Positions 2,959-46,749 of a stretch of 54,214 bases of DNA are shown here, piece by piece. The stretch's first letter is position 1. The number at the start of each line of letters is the position of its first letter. The position numbers and the translations under genes were made by a program. Under the pieces are notes generated by a model. The model did no database searches. It was not told the DNA's origin and saw nothing but the letters and a program-made list of their open reading frames with translations. The stretch lies in contig JAGQGU010000001.1 in the NCBI GenBank assembly GCA_020432165.1, forward strand, positions 1 to 54,214, in the 5' to 3' direction. The DNA comes from Thermomicrobiales bacterium (GTDB lineage: Bacteria; Chloroflexota; Chloroflexia; Thermomicrobiales; UBA6265).

Positions 2959-3088
2959 CTGTTGATGCCCTCTCCAGTAATCTATGAAAGTCGTTGGGCT
3001 CAACTGTATCAGCGTATCCTCATCTCTGCACAACGTGAAAAGGTGTTGCCATTGGCATTTGCGGACATTTTCTGTCCTGGTCGCTGGA

Positions 3089-3094
3089 TACAAT
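3089..3094 (+). promoter_or_regulatory. Candidate -10 element of the HicB/DinB-like triplet operon
   Basis: TACAAT (preceded by GA) lies 19 bp before the first start codon of the operon, just ahead of an AAGGAGGTGAGAA ribosome binding site. No convincing -35 is seen at 16-18 bp. The same core occurs before other plus-strand operons in this window (9305, 14224). Confidence 0.35.
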
Positions 3095-3113
3095 GATGCC
3101 AAGGAGGTGAGAA

Positions 3114-3785
3114 ATGTCAGAGCAGAATCGTGTTGTCCTGGAAATCGCCGCCAAAAAGAGCTTTGCCTCTGCGCTGGACTGGCCAGGCTGGTGCCGACCG
3201 GGAAAGACTGCGGAGGAATCACTGGTGGTTCTGGCAGACTACGCTCCCAGGTATCAGGTCATTGCTGAACTGGCGGGTCTTGGCGGCATCCACGAGATCG
3301 CCGAGCATCTGGATGTGATTGAGAAGCTCGAAGGTGACCCCACCACCGAGTTTGGCGCTCCCAATATTCACGCTGCTGCCGAGGACCTGTTCATGACTCC
3401 CGAGGAGTGCGAACGACAACTAGCCCTACTGCAAGCGTGCTGGACCTTCTTCGATGATGTTTCGGCCCGTGTCTCCGAGGAGATGCAAAAGGGTCCACGG
3501 GGCGGCGGTCGGAATCGCACCGAAATCATCAATCATGTCAACGAAGCCCAACGCTATTACGTGACCCAGTTGGGAGTGAAGGCGAAACGTGATTCGTTGG
3601 TGACGCGCGAGCTTATCGAACCCCACCGTGAGGCGATCATCGCAGCGCTGCGAGAACACAACCAGAATCAGCAGCATCCACGCTGGCCGCTGCGGTACGT
3701 CATCCGTCGGGCGGCCTGGCATGTCCTTGATCACTCCTGGGAGATGGAGGACAAGGATCTCACCAGTCAGGGTGCTCAGGAGTAG
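3114..3785 (+). CDS. HicB-like/DinB-like paralogue 1 of 3
   Basis: A 223-residue cytoplasmic protein. Residues ~6-45 (ALDWPGWCRPGKTAEESL) resemble the HicB-type fold, in which a PGC-like turn precedes an EEA helix. The C-terminal half contains the glycine-rich GPRGGGR at 128-133, His141, and HVLDHSWEMEDKDL with His203 and His207. One His in an early helix plus a C-terminal HxxxH matches the three-histidine metal site of the DinB/YfiT helical bundle. The function is unknown; a metal-dependent thiol or small-molecule transferase is possible. AAGGAGG sits at the expected distance before ATG. It starts a three-gene run of paralogues; gaps are 17 and 3 bp. Confidence 0.7.
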   Translation: MSEQNRVVLEIAAKKSFASALDWPGWCRPGKTAEESLVVLADYAPRYQVIAELAGLGGIHEIAEHLDVIEKLEGDPTTEFGAPNIHAAAEDLFMTPEECERQLALLQACWTFFDDVSARVSEEMQKGPRGGGRNRTEIINHVNEAQRYYVTQLGVKAKRDSLVTRELIEPHREAIIAALREHNQNQQHPRWPLRYVIRRAAWHVLDHSWEMEDKDLTSQGAQE

Positions 3786-3802
3786 AAAGTCAGGAGGCAA
3801 GG

Positions 3803-4468
3803 ATGTCCGATGTAAACAGGATTGTGCTGGAGGTAGCGCCCAAGAAGAGCTTTGCATCCGCACTCGATTGGCCCGGCTGGAGCCGATCCGGCAAGACTCG
3901 CGATGCCGCCATACAGGTGCTCACCGATTACGCTCCACGGTATCTCAAGGTGGCAGAGATCGCGGGAATAGATGGTGTGCTTGTTGCCGCGACAACCTGG
4001 AACACCATCGATGAAGTATCCGGTAATGGCGCTACCGAGTTCGGGGTTCCGGAACACATCCACGATGTGGAGAGATCGTTCTTCGCCCAAGATGAGCTGG
4101 AGCGGCAAATCGCACTTCTGCGAGCAAGCTGGCAGTATTTCGATGAAATGGGTGAGCGTGTCTCCGCGGAGATGCAGAAGGGACCGCGTGGTGGTGGCCG
4201 GGACCGTGATGTCATCGTTCGGCACGTTATTGACTGCGAGCCGAATTATGCGCGTCGGATCGGTGCGGATACTCCATCGGCACTGGTTGCCACTCCGGAG
4301 GGTTTGGCGGAACATCGGCGTCGCGTTGTTGCTCGTATCCATGAGGTAAACGAAAACCAGCTCGAAACAAAATGGCCGCTGCCATATTTCGTCCGTCGCG
4401 CTGCCTGGCATGTGCTGGATCACGCCTGGGAAATGGAAGACAAGGATCTCACAGGCAAGGAGCGGTAG
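3803..4468 (+). CDS. HicB-like/DinB-like paralogue 2 of 3
   Basis: A 221-residue close paralogue of the preceding gene; the two align almost without gaps. The shared blocks are KKSFASALDWPGW near the N-terminus, QKGPRGGGR at 125-133, and AAWHVLDHxWEMEDKDL near the C-terminus. The predicted metal-site histidines are again 141, 203 and 207. Strong identity with paralogue 1 and the 17-bp gap indicate a recent tandem duplication. The middle (residues 145-190) diverges, as expected if it forms a substrate pocket. The gene has its own AGGAGGCAAGG ribosome binding site. Confidence 0.7.
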   Translation: MSDVNRIVLEVAPKKSFASALDWPGWSRSGKTRDAAIQVLTDYAPRYLKVAEIAGIDGVLVAATTWNTIDEVSGNGATEFGVPEHIHDVERSFFAQDELERQIALLRASWQYFDEMGERVSAEMQKGPRGGGRDRDVIVRHVIDCEPNYARRIGADTPSALVATPEGLAEHRRRVVARIHEVNENQLETKWPLPYFVRRAAWHVLDHAWEMEDKDLTGKER

Positions 4469-4471
4469 ATC

Positions 4472-5161
4472 ATGCGTGTTTCAATCGAGCGCGGACCAAA
4501 AGGCAAGAAATGCGTGGCCTATGCCATCGATTGGCCGGGTCTCGAACGCAACGGCAAGACGGTCGATACCGCATGTGAGCGCCTGGATGAATATCGCCAG
4601 CGGTATGCTCGCGTCGCCACCCTCGCTGGATTGGGCCAGACCTTCACGGCAGAACCCGCGGCGGAGATCATAGAGGATTACCCTGGTGTGGGCTCGACGG
4701 ATTTTTGGGGAATCTCCTTCGCCCAGAGTCCGCTCGATCTTGCGGGTATCGATACCGAGACGTTTGAGCGCCGTATCCTGCTACTGGAAGCGTGTTGGCA
4801 GGAATTCGATGATATCGCTACGCGGGTCTCTCCCGAACTGCGGAAAGGTCCGCGCGGAGGAGGGCGTGATCGCGATCACATTGTTCGTCATCTGATCGCC
4901 AGCGAACTCGATTGGACACCGAAGATCGGAATCCGTCTTGACTATCACGATGTAGCATTCCCGGTGGAGAATCGCCAGCAGTTCCACGAGGAAGTGGTGG
5001 CGCAGCTTCGCTATCACTACACCACCGCTACTCCGGCCAGGCTGAAAGGCGGACCAGAATGGTCCATGCCCTTCTTCATCCGCCATCTTGCCTATCACGT
5101 GATGGATCATGCCTGGGAGATGGAGGACAAGGATCTCGGCGAGCAGGACTCTACATCCTGA
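4472..5161 (+). CDS. HicB-like/DinB-like paralogue 3 of 3, divergent
   Basis: A 229-residue member of the same family that opens differently (VSIERGPKGKKCVAYAIDWPGL). From memory this is the form found as single-copy hypothetical proteins in actinobacteria. The core is conserved: DWPG at 20-23, GSTDFWGISF at 74-83, KGPRGGGRDRD at 125-135, His140, and HVMDHAWEMEDKDL with His209 and His213. It begins 3 bp after the previous stop with only a weak ribosome binding site (AGGAGCGG), so coupled translation is likely. It may be the ancestral copy and the two upstream genes derived ones; this is inference. The gene ends 8 bp short of a convergent gene. Confidence 0.7.
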   Translation: MRVSIERGPKGKKCVAYAIDWPGLERNGKTVDTACERLDEYRQRYARVATLAGLGQTFTAEPAAEIIEDYPGVGSTDFWGISFAQSPLDLAGIDTETFERRILLLEACWQEFDDIATRVSPELRKGPRGGGRDRDHIVRHLIASELDWTPKIGIRLDYHDVAFPVENRQQFHEEVVAQLRYHYTTATPARLKGGPEWSMPFFIRHLAYHVMDHAWEMEDKDLGEQDSTS

Positions 5162-5169
5162 TCCAGGGA

Positions 5170-5751
5170 CTAGGCGTCAATCACGTCCGCCAGATGGTCG
5201 ATAAGTCCCTCGGTGGTGCCATCGGCATAGCCCAGGATGATCACGTACCCAATCCGGCCAACGGAGATGGAAAATCCCTCTTCGCCCAGAACCCAGAAGT
5301 TGGTGCCGCCCACGGCTGTGGTCATTTGGGGTTGATCATAGAGATCGCCCAGTTTTCGCACCAGTTCGGCGTAGGCAATATCAACCGATTCATAGACGAT
5401 GTAGCCGCCCAGCATTTCGAGATCACCATTGATGACCCCGTCACCCTTGCTGATAACGACACCACCAAGCGAACTGAAGAGATCGGTATCGCCCATGTCG
5501 GCCCACGCAACCGGCGTGGGAACATCTGGGGCAGCAGCGGCGACCAGGAGATCGTTGGAAACTGCGGTTGTCTCCAAAAGGGTGAGGATATCTGCCGGCA
5601 GTTTGCGCTTCATCGCACTCACGATGCGGCGTGCGCGTTTGTCGATCACATCGCCGCTGGCAGGTGTGGTTTCGGGAGTTCCTTGCGCAGCCAGAACATT
5701 GGGCAAGAAAGGAATCACTGCGCTGGCGGTGATAAGCGTGCGACGGTTCAT
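5170..5751 (-). CDS. Exported hypothetical protein
   Basis: A 193-residue protein with an N-terminal export signal: MNRRTLITASAVIPFLPN ends in VLAAQG, a plausible signal peptidase I site near residue 22, and the twin arginines suggest Tat export. The mature part is a single mixed domain without recognisable motifs; it has two SSLGG/MLGGYI-like glycine turns and no cysteines. I do not recognise the family. The Met at 5751 is preferred to that at 5787 because AAAGGAG lies 6 nt before it and it begins the signal peptide directly. The gene converges on the triplet operon. Confidence 0.6.
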   Translation of the reverse strand: MNRRTLITASAVIPFLPNVLAAQGTPETTPASGDVIDKRARRIVSAMKRKLPADILTLLETTAVSNDLLVAAAAPDVPTPVAWADMGDTDLFSSLGGVVISKGDGVINGDLEMLGGYIVYESVDIAYAELVRKLGDLYDQPQMTTAVGGTNFWVLGEEGFSISVGRIGYVIILGYADGTTEGLIDHLADVIDA

Positions 5752-5866
5752 GCGATACTCCTTTGCCGAAAACACAATCTCTATCATTAAGAACGAACGA
5801 GTCGCGAAAACTGTTCGGTCATCACCGATATTGATTGATTTTCATCATAACGCATCGCCGAGATGA

Positions 5867-28621: not shown

Positions 28622-28692
28622 TCGTGTTGACGTATGGCTGACTCATGGTACAAGTGAACCTGCAACAGAACACAGCGGGAGTAGTACACACC

Positions 28693-29880
28693 ATGTCAAC
28701 AAATCCATGGATCGAGCGGGTTAATCGCGAGGAGATCGTCGACGTCAGCAAGGCGCTCGTTTCGATTCCCTCTGTCAGCGGCGATGAATACGAAGTCATG
28801 CAGTTCGTCAAACGATGGTTGGATGACCATGGCATTAGCTATGTGGAGACTGCCAACGATCCGATGCGACCGAACATCATCGCCACGGTTGGTAATCCGG
28901 GCGAGGGTCCCTTGATCGCGATGAATGGTCACCTCGACACCGTGCCCGTCAGCGATGCCAGCAGCTGGAAGACGGATCCCTTCCAGGGTGTCCTGAGCGA
29001 GGATGGGCAGAAGCTCTTCGGTCGCGGCGCGAGCGACATGAAGTCCAGTGTCGGTGTGATGATGACCATGCTGGATCTCTTCAAGGATGCGCCACTCAAG
29101 GGTGCCCTCAGTGCCCATATCGTGAGTGACGAGGAAACCAGTGCTATCTACGGCACGCTGCATGTACTTGACGAGATTGAGGCTGGCAATCTTCCGCGAC
29201 CCGACTATGTCTTCATCGGCGAGGGGAGCCAGCACAAGGTTCGCAATGCCGAACGCGGCGGGTTGGCTGTAAATGTGCACTTCAAAGGGCGCGCCAGTCA
29301 CACAGCGGCCGCGCGCGTCACCGGTATCAACGCGCTGGCCAAGGCCGCCAAGGGCATCCTGGCTTTGGAGCATCATATCGATACCTTCCATCCTGCGGTG
29401 GGATATCCGGTGCTGAGCGTGAACATGATTCAGGCTGGCGTTGCGCACAACGTGGTACCGGGTGAAGCGATGATTAGCATCGATCGCCGCCTTGTCCCGG
29501 GCGAGGATAAGGAAAGCGTTGTTGCTGATATTCGCGCCAAGCTGGATGCGGTGGCGGCAGAGGATCCGGAGTTCGTCTACGAGCTCGAGATTGATCCAGA
29601 TGGCGGGTATATTGCCCCGAACATCACGCCGGAGGATTCGCCGCTGGTCCAGGCCTTCCAGAGCGCCGTGCGTGAACTTACAGGCGAAGAACCAGAGTTC
29701 TTCGTCGAGTGGGCGGGTATGACCGACGGTCGCTTCTATCGGCAACATGGCATGGATACTGTTTGCATGGGTCCGCGTGGTGAAGGCGCCCACGGAGCCA
29801 ATGAGAGTATCAATATTGACGATCTGGAGAAGCAGGCGAAGATTTACGCGCTCACCATCAGTAGTCTGTTGGGCGTATAA
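28693..29880 (+). CDS. M20 family metallopeptidase/deacylase, paralogue 1
   Basis: A 395-residue ArgE/DapE/YgeY-type zinc hydrolase removing an acyl or amino-acid group from an amide. Zinc and catalytic motifs are MNGHLDTVPVSD (near 76), GRGASDMKSSVG (~113-124) and SDEETSA (~148). The dimerisation domain contains HFKGRASHTAAARVTGINALAKAA. It closely resembles the gene at 31264; the alignment is nearly gap-free across the whole length. The substrate is unknown. Met at 28693 starts the conserved region. A terminator follows. Confidence 0.88.
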   Translation: MSTNPWIERVNREEIVDVSKALVSIPSVSGDEYEVMQFVKRWLDDHGISYVETANDPMRPNIIATVGNPGEGPLIAMNGHLDTVPVSDASSWKTDPFQGVLSEDGQKLFGRGASDMKSSVGVMMTMLDLFKDAPLKGALSAHIVSDEETSAIYGTLHVLDEIEAGNLPRPDYVFIGEGSQHKVRNAERGGLAVNVHFKGRASHTAAARVTGINALAKAAKGILALEHHIDTFHPAVGYPVLSVNMIQAGVAHNVVPGEAMISIDRRLVPGEDKESVVADIRAKLDAVAAEDPEFVYELEIDPDGGYIAPNITPEDSPLVQAFQSAVRELTGEEPEFFVEWAGMTDGRFYRQHGMDTVCMGPRGEGAHGANESINIDDLEKQAKIYALTISSLLGV

Positions 29881-31263: not shown

Positions 31264-32439
31264 ATGTCCAGCAATCAATGGGTCGATAAGGTAAATCGAG
31301 ATCAGCTCGTGCAGGTTTGCAAGCAACTCGTTTCGATTCCATCCGTGAGCGGCGACGAATTCGAGGTCATGCAGTTCGTGAAGAGCTGGCTGGCTGACCG
31401 CGATATCGCCTATATCGAGACCGCCAACGATCCGCAACGACCAAACATCATAGCTACGATTGGTGACGCCAACGCCGGCCCGATCATTGCCATGAATGGT
31501 CATCTCGATGTTGTCCCGGTTAGTGATGCCAGCAGTTGGGAGTCCGATCCCTTCGAAGGTGTCGTGCGGAATGGTCGACTCTATGGTCGTGGCGCGGCCG
31601 ATATGAAGTCGAGTGTCGGTGTCATGCTCACTATGCTGGATATGTTTAGGAACGCGTCGTTGCAGGGTGCGCTCAGTGTTCATGTCGTGAGCGATGAGGA
31701 GCGAGGTGCGAACTTTGGTACCAAACATGTTGTCGCTGAAATAGAAGCAGGGAACATTCCACGACCAGACTTCACGATTGTCGGTGAAGGAAGTGGCTTC
31801 AAGATTCGCATCGCTGAACGCGGCGGTCTGGGAGTCAAGGTTCATTTCAAGGGACGCGCCAGCCACACCGCCGTGGCCCGTGTGACTGGTATCAATGCTC
31901 TCGCCAAGGCTGCCAAAGGAATCCTTGCGCTGGAGCATCATCTGGAAACCTTCCACCCTGCAGTCGGCCATCCTGTGCTCAGTGTGAATGGTATTCAGGC
32001 GGGTATCGCCGATAATGTTGTGCCTGGTGAGGCGATGATCGATATCGACCGCCGCACGGTGCCGGGAGAGACGGTGGAGAGCATCATTGGTGATATCCGT
32101 GCGAAGCTGGATGCCGTAGCCGCCACCGATCCCGACTTCATTTACGAGCTGGAATACGATCCCGAGCGCTACACCGTTGCCAATATGACCTCGGCGGATT
32201 CCCCGTTGGTCGTTGCCTTCCAGGAGTCGTTGCGCGAGCTCGATCGCGAACCGGAGTTCTTTGTCGAATGGGCTGGTATCACGGATGCACGCCTTTATCG
32301 TGGCATTGGTATCGACACCGTCATCATGGGTGCTGCCGGCGAGAACGAGCACGGTGCGAACGAATACATTGAGATCAACGATATCGAGACCCAGGCCCGT
32401 ATCTATGCCGCCACGATTTCGCGATTGCTCGGTGTGTAA
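31264..32439 (+). CDS. M20 family metallopeptidase/deacylase, paralogue 2
   Basis: A 391-residue zinc hydrolase highly similar to the one at 28693. Metal motifs are MNGHLDVVPVSD, GRGAADMKSSVG and SDEERGA; the shared block HFKGRASHTAVARVTGINALAKAAKGILALEHH is nearly identical. Differences cluster near the active site (ERGA for ETSA) and in the C-terminal EFFVEWAGITDARLYRGIG region, suggesting altered specificity. GGGGGAG lies 5 nt before the ATG. The amidohydrolase gene follows after 54 bp, so both may degrade one amide or carbamoyl compound. Confidence 0.88.
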   Translation: MSSNQWVDKVNRDQLVQVCKQLVSIPSVSGDEFEVMQFVKSWLADRDIAYIETANDPQRPNIIATIGDANAGPIIAMNGHLDVVPVSDASSWESDPFEGVVRNGRLYGRGAADMKSSVGVMLTMLDMFRNASLQGALSVHVVSDEERGANFGTKHVVAEIEAGNIPRPDFTIVGEGSGFKIRIAERGGLGVKVHFKGRASHTAVARVTGINALAKAAKGILALEHHLETFHPAVGHPVLSVNGIQAGIADNVVPGEAMIDIDRRTVPGETVESIIGDIRAKLDAVAATDPDFIYELEYDPERYTVANMTSADSPLVVAFQESLRELDREPEFFVEWAGITDARLYRGIGIDTVIMGAAGENEHGANEYIEINDIETQARIYAATISRLLGV

Positions 32440-44086: not shown

Positions 44087-45070
44087 CTATTCGGCCGTCT
44101 TGATCGAGGCTTCGATAGTCTTCTTCAGCAGATCGTAGTTCGCCTGATTCGTCACCACATTCAGCTGACCCGTACCGTTATCCAGCACGAATGTCGGCGT
44201 GGAGGAAACGCCCGAATTCTGACCTTCCTTGATATCGGCAGCGATAAACGGAATGTACTTGCCGCTATCCATACAGGTGTTGAATGCATCCATATCCAGG
44301 CCGATGTCTTCGGCGAAGCGATTAAGGTTCGAGCGTTTGAAAGCTCCCTCCTGTTCGCCACTCCAATTGCCGAATAACTTGTCGGCCATGGTCATATAGT
44401 GGTCCTGCTCCCCGGCACACATTGCTGCCTGCGAAGCGAGTGACGACTCATTGTTTGGATCACGCAATTCCACCGTCAGATCGTTCGGATCAGCGATCGC
44501 GCTATCCGTTCCCAGACGGGCAAACTCGTGGAAGACCACGCGAACCTGGCCAGTGCGGACGAAATCGTCAATCACCTGTGGCAACTCGTCTTCATGCCAG
44601 GCGCGGCAATAGGGGCACTGGTAATCGCTGTAGATATGCATGGTCACAGGAGCATTCGGATCACCGATGGAGAAACCAGCGGCTTCGACGATAAGTCCAT
44701 CCGATTCAGCCTGAAGCGTGGTATCTGGAGTACCGAGATTGGCAATCGCATTGCTCGGTGCCACATCAATACCGGTGTAGTCGATCTTCACACCCGATGC
44801 TGTCGGTCGATTGGCAAAGATGGCAATCACCACAACGATGACGGCAACAATCACACCACCGATGATCATTTGCATCTGGCGCTTCTTCTTGGCAGCCGCT
44901 TCTGCGGCCTCCTTCCGACTGCTGCGCTTGGATGCGGTCGCCGCGGCACTCGTCTCAGCGGCGGTTGAAGTAGCGGTGCTCTTCGCTGCCGTTGTGTTCG
45001 TCGACGTGGATTTTGCCTTGGCTGTGGTATTCGGCTTGCGTTGGGTATTCGATTTCTTCTTCTGCGTCAT
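44087..45070 (-). CDS. DsbA-like membrane-anchored thiol oxidoreductase
   Basis: A 327-residue protein. An N-terminal cytoplasmic tail of ~65 residues is almost only Thr, Ala, Ser, Lys (low complexity), followed by one membrane segment (~69-87). The external thioredoxin-fold domain has YSDYQCPYCRAWHEDELP with the redox pair Cys152-Cys155, and a cis-Pro in SSTPTFVLDNG. It is a donor of disulfide bonds, reoxidised by the VKOR encoded 2 bp downstream. The extra Cys pair (AAMCAG, FNTCMDSG) may form a structural disulfide. Met at 45070 has GAGGAG 10 nt upstream. Confidence 0.9.
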   Translation of the reverse strand: MTQKKKSNTQRKPNTTAKAKSTSTNTTAAKSTATSTAAETSAAATASKRSSRKEAAEAAAKKKRQMQMIIGGVIVAVIVVVIAIFANRPTASGVKIDYTGIDVAPSNAIANLGTPDTTLQAESDGLIVEAAGFSIGDPNAPVTMHIYSDYQCPYCRAWHEDELPQVIDDFVRTGQVRVVFHEFARLGTDSAIADPNDLTVELRDPNNESSLASQAAMCAGEQDHYMTMADKLFGNWSGEQEGAFKRSNLNRFAEDIGLDMDAFNTCMDSGKYIPFIAADIKEGQNSGVSSTPTFVLDNGTGQLNVVTNQANYDLLKKTIEASIKTAE

Positions 45071-45223
45071 GTTGCGTGGACTCCTCAAGTTCGCGCCATG
45101 GCGAATACATGCTCATGTCGCCAAGTGTACCTACACCGTGAGGCACATGCGACCTTCTATGTACACAAACGCGAACCGCCCCGCTGCGGATGCATGGGAC
45201 GGTTACGCGGGACACTCATCGGT

Positions 45224-45911: not shown

Positions 45912-46664
45912 TCACTCCCCAAGAAAATCGTCCAGAATTGCTTTCAGACCATCGTAATCGCCATCGGCAATTTGGAAGGGATTGGTGCGATCAAGCGTGA
46001 AGGTTGGCGTACCGGGCACACCCAATTGAAGCGCGAGTGTGACTGACCGCACGATATCCTGCTCGTAGATACCATCGGCAAGCGTTGTGGCGAACTGCTC
46101 TTCGTCCAGTCCTGTCTCAACAGCACCCTGAACCAGGTTTTCATCCACGAAATCGCCGACGCTGAGCACATCGGGACCGGTAAAGAGCCATTCCCGATAC
46201 TCCAGGAACTTGCCTTGCTCGGCCGCGGCCGCAGCAGCTTCTGCAGCCTGCACGCTCTCCAGCGAATCGTCGGTGAGCTCCGCAAAGCTGGGTACGCCCA
46301 CCACAGTCATATCAATCAGTTCCAACTGCAGCTTGCCCGTGGCGATGTAATCCGCCAGCAGCTGCGGCTCCACCTCGTGGTGGAACAGTCGGCAGTGCGG
46401 GCAGCGATAATCAGAGAAGAGCGTGAGTGTATGCTCGGCACTCCCGAGCATATAACCCGTCAACTCAACCGGATCCACGTCGTACGTGGGTGTACCCACG
46501 ACCGGCACTGGCGTGGCGGTGAGATCCGTCCGAATGAAAGAAGCATTCTGGAACGGAATAGCAGTTGTGGATTCCGGGGTTTGCGCAGAGACGAGATGCC
46601 TGCCCGCAAGGAGGCCGGTTGTGCCGAGTGAGGTGGCAGCGAGAAAAGTACGTCTGTTGATCAC
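45912..46664 (-). CDS. Tat-type exported DsbA-like protein
   Basis: A 250-residue thioredoxin-fold protein with a twin-arginine signal (NRRTFLAATSLGTTGLLAG, ending near VSAQT at 24-29). LFSDYRCPHCRLFHHEVEP holds the redox pair Cys88-Cys91, and the cis-Pro loop is GVPGTPTFTLDRTNP. No further Cys is seen, in contrast to the other DsbA-like gene nearby. It probably acts outside the membrane as a second oxidase or isomerase for the VKOR. The GTG at 46664 is chosen because AAAGGA lies 6 nt upstream. Confidence 0.87.
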   Translation of the reverse strand: MINRRTFLAATSLGTTGLLAGRHLVSAQTPESTTAIPFQNASFIRTDLTATPVPVVGTPTYDVDPVELTGYMLGSAEHTLTLFSDYRCPHCRLFHHEVEPQLLADYIATGKLQLELIDMTVVGVPSFAELTDDSLESVQAAEAAAAAAEQGKFLEYREWLFTGPDVLSVGDFVDENLVQGAVETGLDEEQFATTLADGIYEQDIVRSVTLALQLGVPGTPTFTLDRTNPFQIADGDYDGLKAILDDFLGE

Positions 46665-46749
46665 CAATTGTCCTTTCGCCTGATGACGGGCGGAATCGTT
46701 CGATTCCACGCTAACATTAACGGAATATACGTCATGGTTGCGGTCTCGG

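Follow-up and report, generated by a model that had tools for sequence, protein, structure and literature searches.

Membership of the DinB/YfiT (S-transferase-like, STL) superfamily is structural (PMC5815605). All eight STL enzymes of B. subtilis transfer bacillithiol to some degree, their activity is metal dependent, and three histidines are their only fully conserved residues; for STL enzymes with two domains, the second domain has been suggested to set the non-thiol substrate (PMC5815605). The closest known relatives of the proteins studied here are YfiT/BstA from B. subtilis (1rxq), BstA from S. aureus (5wk0) and the mycothiol S-transferase from M. tuberculosis (8f5v), which are four-helix bundles with one histidine on helix 2 and an HxxxH motif on helix 4. 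The mycothiol-dependent maleylpyruvate isomerase (2nsf) and EgtB, OvoA, SenA and OvsA combine a DinB-type domain with a second domain, which is C-terminal and either SCP2-like or FGE-sulfatase. The colibactin self-resistance hydrolase ClbS (6anr, 7mtl) has a four-helix DinB-like fold and is not known to be a three-histidine metal enzyme.

We analyzed a stretch of 54,214 nucleotides (the window) from an uncultured Thermomicrobiales bacterium that encodes three adjacent proteins of this type. They have the four-helix bundle and the histidine arrangement of YfiT/BstA and mycothiol S-transferase, and match these across the whole C-domain, but add a HicB-like N-terminal domain, an invariant (K)GPRGGGR loop ahead of helix 2 and, within helix 4, the signature RxxxxHxxDHxWE. 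Compared with other DinB/YfiT proteins, their sequences are too distant to pass the Pfam DinB_2 cut-off. Their partner domain is N-terminal and HicB-like, in contrast to that of the two-domain STL enzymes, and ClbS is not known to have such a domain. Searches of the open-access literature gave no publication that treats a fusion of HicB and DinB, and no NCBIfam family covers the trio. The family is widespread and forms a two-domain branch within the DinB/YfiT superfamily that has apparently not been described before.

Organization of the three-gene array

The original prediction, made from the DNA alone, described three adjacent paralogues that share a KGPRGGGR loop, a single histidine and a C-terminal HxxxH. 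The genes do form one array on the same strand, with end-to-end identities of 51% (copies 1 and 2), 38% (copies 1 and 3) and 42% (copies 2 and 3), and the loop and histidines were found exactly at the positions claimed in all three copies (Table 1). Each gene starts with ATG and is preceded by a Shine-Dalgarno-like stretch (AAGGAGGTGAGAAATG, AGGAGGCAAGGATG and AAGGAGCGGTAGATCATG, respectively). The gaps are 17 bp between copies 1 and 2 and 3 bp between copies 2 and 3. With both flanking genes on the other strand, the three genes make up a unit of their own that is probably transcribed as a single operon. A promoter scan for the sigma-70 consensus on the plus strand of the upstream intergenic region gave nothing above chance. 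No fourth copy was detected in the 3.2-Mb draft genome of this bacterium. The approximately 100 relatives collected, together with purifying selection on copies 1 and 3 (see below), indicate that the open reading frames did not arise by chance. PADLOC returned one marginal match, which we judged meaningless. The product of the small gene on the copy 3 side looks secreted; this gene also adjoins the homologous genes at two related loci (L033 and L225, ~40% identity).

Table 1. Features of the array and of related loci. Coordinates refer to the window unless a genome, contig or locus is named; subfamilies A and B are the two groups of the tree described below.
Feature	Coordinates or loci	Strand	Remarks
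Copy 1 (P0001, 223 aa), subfamily A	3114..3785	+	HicB-like N-domain and DinB-like C-domain; His141, His203, His207; KGPRGGGR at 126-133
Copy 2 (P0002, 221 aa), subfamily A	3803..4468	+	Architecture as copy 1; His141, His203, His207
Copy 3 (P0003, 229 aa), subfamily B	4472..5161	+	Architecture as copies 1 and 2; His140, His209, His213
HicB-like domain, copy 3	4472..4729	+	Residues 1 to ~86; strands 2-7, 14-18, 25-28, helices 31-40, 42-51, strand 65-71
DinB/YfiT-like four-helix domain, copy 3	4754..5128	+	Residues 95-219; helices 95-118, 134-152, 165-185, 199-219
155-bp intergenic region, divergent LysE gene to copy 1	2959..3113	+	Presumed promoter region; Shine-Dalgarno AAGGAGG ahead of ATG
LysE (LysE-type exporter) gene	2347-2958	opposite to trio	
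Small protein gene, without Pfam family	5170-5787	-	Flanks trio on copy 3 side
Subfamily-A loci with downstream PIG-L/LmbE	L031, L032/L070, L044, L052, L091, L092, L102, L108		Conserved two-gene unit
Short 410-aa CysRS/MshC-like protein	G000:C76:290084-291280; L175:6076-7308	-; -	
Full CysRS	C34:1221-2381		In same genome as the short CysRS/MshC-like protein

Predicted fold and the three-histidine site

The original prediction suggested structure modeling as a check of its proposal that a HicB-like start is joined to a DinB-type metal site. An AlphaFold model of copy 3, built from the profile of 86 relatives (mean pLDDT 94.4, pTM 0.91), agrees with that proposal: residues 2-71 form three strands, helices and one strand (β-β-β-α-β) and are followed by four long helices. 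For copies 1 and 2, the fold is taken from homology to copy 3; an alignment-free AlphaFold model of copy 1 was discarded (pLDDT 47.5).

The top structural match of copy 3 (residues 80-226) is YfiT (1rxq, Z 8.5, 133 residues aligned at rmsd 3.3), a modest score for a helical bundle, as Z below ~13 in this tool may mean a common arrangement. The best 28 structural matches all fall on DinB/YfiT-type domains, including the thiol transferases BstA (5wk0, Z 7.1) and mycothiol transferase (8f5v, Z 7.0). The next match down has Z 3.8. Foldseek gives a probability of 1.00 to 2qe9. Given the modest Z, the assignment also leans on sequence profiles. Pfam DinB_2 matches residues 105-217 with an E-value of 0.0065 (17.3 bits), under the curated gathering cut-off of 24.8 bits, which is the threshold of one model, the superfamily being defined by structure and not by that score. 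At E-values up to 1, DinB_2 is detected in 14 of the 86 members (best 0.0064). When the C-domain was aligned by hhalign with ten DinB proteins that the same genome encodes, the score was 25.6, which none of 200 column shuffles reached, by a small margin over the best of them (mean 11.6, maximum 24.4). This alignment places H140 on the DinB helix-2 histidine and H209/H213 on the helix-4 pair, and the model likewise has H140 on helix 2 and H209 and H213 on helix 4. Both hallmarks of the superfamily, the four-helix bundle of YfiT topology (in the copy 3 model) and the histidine on helix 2 with HxxxH on helix 4, are thus present. Sequence and model together support a DinB/YfiT-type four-helix C-domain with a predicted three-histidine metal site.

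Because DH[AS]WEME served as a pattern in the scan of genome contigs, the apparent conservation of H213 in that set is biased, and conservation was therefore recomputed on 58 distinct full-length sequences from pattern-free searches (window copies included). H140 and H213 are conserved in all 58 sequences and H209 in 57, while the other histidines of copy 3 are found in 3-33 of the 58. Also invariant are W21, P22, G23, R26, W109, G126, R128, G131, R132, R204, D212, W215, E216 and D219. Eleven further DinB_2 genes score above the Pfam cut-off in the window's 3.2-Mb genome (G000; contigs C62, C54, C82, C9, C63 and C21), three of them clustered near the end of contig C62.

The N-domain was compared with 26 HicB-like Chloroflexota proteins over 57 columns and gave an hhalign score of 31.8 (200 shuffles: mean 10.8, maximum 15.9). 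Cross-comparisons (N-domain against DinB, C-domain against HicB) were at background level. Structural matches of the N-domain are weak, namely 1wv8 (TTHA1013, Z 3.2), 3k6q (an antitoxin, Z 3.1) and 6u0i (HicB3, Z 2.9), each spanning copy 3 residues 1 to 65-71. The clear profile match and the consistent, although weak, fold matches support a HicB-like N-domain, as originally predicted. The strand-strand-strand-helix-strand order of these small domains (Pfam PF15919) and their PG....GKT/D...EA pattern over ~57 columns are shared by the trio family, which differs from them in having neither a DNA-binding domain nor a hicA neighbor and in its (nearly) invariant WPGxxR and RY residues. Invariant residues occur in both domains, so that the HicB-like part is more than loosely appended. 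Searches of PDB sequences, with a single sequence and with a profile, found no relatives.

Distribution and history of the duplication

Matches to the family were detected in 76 of 301 sampled genomes of the phylum, 30 of 158 of the class and 16 of 32 of the family to which the bacterium belongs. The original prediction mentioned single copies in actinobacteria; single-copy relatives do exist in Actinomycetota, but most relatives found are from Chloroflexota (including Ktedonobacter, Dictyobacter and Kouleothrix). One homologue belongs to a cultured species, Ktedonobacter racemifer. A survey of copy number and neighbors, also suggested at the outset, showed a single gene at nearly all relative loci and a PIG-L/LmbE neighbor in eight subfamily-A relatives. 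No viral relatives were found. The plasmid collection gave a single record, from Nonomuraea, which at 11.85 Mb is evidently of chromosome size and carries no annotation there.

The tree has two main groups, A (copies 1 and 2) and B (copy 3), each side supported at 100/99. Copies 1 and 3 have orthologues in a congener (L033/G329; 71% and 76% identity, respectively), and no close orthologue of copy 2 was found (best match 51-54%). At the syntenic locus beside ackA, this congener has an A+B pair and another congener (G328) a single A gene, so that the locus holds one, two or three copies within one genus. An A+B pair is also present elsewhere in the family (L035). Three genes in a row were detected only in the window's genome among the genomes searched, and the triplication itself is an unusual, modest local expansion of copy number.

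Copies 1 and 2 had been taken for recent duplicates. This is contradicted by their 51% identity, by saturated silent sites between them and by the branching of copy 2 outside the group of copy 1 and its L033 orthologue (support 91/86). From these sequence relationships, the split probably predates the divergence from the L033 congener, and loss would be the simplest account of the absence of copy 2 there. Copies 1 and 3 differ from their orthologues by dN of 0.16-0.19, low against saturated silent change, which points to purifying selection on both. Elsewhere in the window, two peptidase/deacylase-like genes (M20 type by eye; 28645-29880 and 31264-32439) lie 1.4 kb apart and are 70% identical, more similar in sequence than any two copies of the trio.

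Association with a PIG-L/LmbE deacetylase and proposed function

A PIG-L/LmbE gene is directly downstream, on the same strand, at nine subfamily-A loci (eight distinct, as L032 and L070 are the same), 5 to ~14 bp from the subfamily-A gene. The linked proteins carry HPDD and HPDH motifs, and their best matches are BshB2 (102 bits) and MshB. LmbE enzymes take part in bacillithiol and mycothiol synthesis by deacetylating precursors, and they also cleave S-conjugates of these thiols (PMC4101496). This linkage, together with the precedent of the STL enzymes, makes a metal-dependent thiol S-transferase the best guess for the family. The family has candidate active-site residues, and one of its branches is tied to sugar-thiol deacetylases.

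On balance, we lean toward reading the trio as thiol S-transferases that depend on a metal and carry a HicB-like domain as an accessory. The genes are long-separated paralogues, copies 1 and 2 from one subfamily and copy 3 from the other, retained in what is probably one operon. The DinB/YfiT bundle would most likely bind one divalent metal through the three histidines (in copy 3, the predicted ligands are H140 from helix 2 and H209 and H213 from helix 4). The metal would activate a low-molecular-weight thiol to attack an electrophile, by analogy with the S-transferases that use bacillithiol or mycothiol. A pocket would be shaped by the invariant RGGGR loop, which immediately precedes helix 2, and by R204, D212 and E216; it might accommodate an anionic group on either the thiol or the substrate. 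The HicB-like domain would be an accessory for substrate choice or dimerization and would have no antitoxin role. Differing electrophile specificity is the most likely reason for keeping three genes.

Alternative explanations

Several observations count against the involvement of a thiol. Only one branch of subfamily A shows the PIG-L linkage, which the window locus lacks. Neither a complete mycothiol nor a complete bacillithiol pathway was found in the window's genome, where BshC was not detected and MshA and MshD gave only weak generic matches (MshA 95.3 bits, cut-off 462.5; MshD 31.5 bits, cut-off 163.1). The DinB fold also includes isomerases and a hydrolase, and the fold matches of copy 3 include maleylpyruvate isomerase (2nsf) and ClbS (6anr, 7mtl). 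YfiT itself was reportedly first described as a probable metal-dependent hydrolase. The same fold and metal site could support hydrolysis or isomerization of one particular substrate, probably an anionic one, and the invariant RGGGR loop together with further invariant R, D, W and E residues suggests a pocket more specialized than that of a generic STL enzyme. We consider such chemistry possible but distinctly less probable, as the linkage in eight relatives suits sugar-thiol chemistry and the eight B. subtilis enzymes all have some bacillithiol transferase activity (PMC5815605).

The three proteins might instead assemble into one hetero-oligomer, with a different surface on each chain, rather than act as separate enzymes. 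The operon-like tight spacing is compatible with this, as is the recurrence, in L033 from the same genus and in L035, of an A-type gene with a B-type gene immediately after it. However, most relatives have a lone gene from one subfamily or the other, indicating that each type can work alone, and every copy keeps the full histidine triad, as expected for an independent enzyme; we regard a single complex as improbable. Less likely still is an antitoxin of the HicB type, or a derivative of a toxin-antitoxin system, whose N-domain would bind the toxin HicA and whose C-domain would have taken the place of the DNA-binding domain. The HicB profile match of the N-domain, unequaled in 200 shuffles, and the fold matches at Z ~3 agree with such an origin. 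Nevertheless, the array leaves no room for hicA between its genes, its neighbors at both ends are on the opposite strand, and the C-domain is DinB-like with an invariant histidine triad, not helix-turn-helix or ribbon-helix-helix. PADLOC returned no antitoxin match, and no recurring toxin gene was seen among the nearest neighbors of 80 relatives (open reading frames of at least 90 aa). With neither an adjacent hicA nor a DNA-binding C-domain, the antitoxin explanation was rejected.

A possible thiol system in Chloroflexota

If the thiol link of the proposed S-transferases holds, it points to an as yet unidentified protective thiol in Chloroflexota. The window's genome encodes a short CysRS/MshC-like protein in addition to a full CysRS, and a similar pair occurs in most of the 31 Thermomicrobiales genomes searched. 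The short protein reaches 406 bits with the MshC model, under its cut-off of 485, and 395 bits with that of CysRS, over its cut-off of 340. The window's genome also encodes an MshB-like deacetylase (147 bits, under the cut-off). It is conceivable, although we think it rather doubtful, that Chloroflexota have a low-molecular-weight thiol system not described so far, with the HicB-DinB fusions as its conjugating enzymes. Its thiol would be a cysteine-sugar, produced by the short MshC/CysRS-like protein and the MshB-like deacetylases of Thermomicrobiales; PIG-L proteins encoded beside some fusions would process precursors or conjugates, and the three copies would form a small group of conjugating enzymes that differ in substrate.

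As a separate observation, the window encodes two neighboring exported thioredoxin-like proteins on the minus strand (44087-45088 and 45912-46709), which are DsbA-type with CPYC and CPHC motifs by eye.
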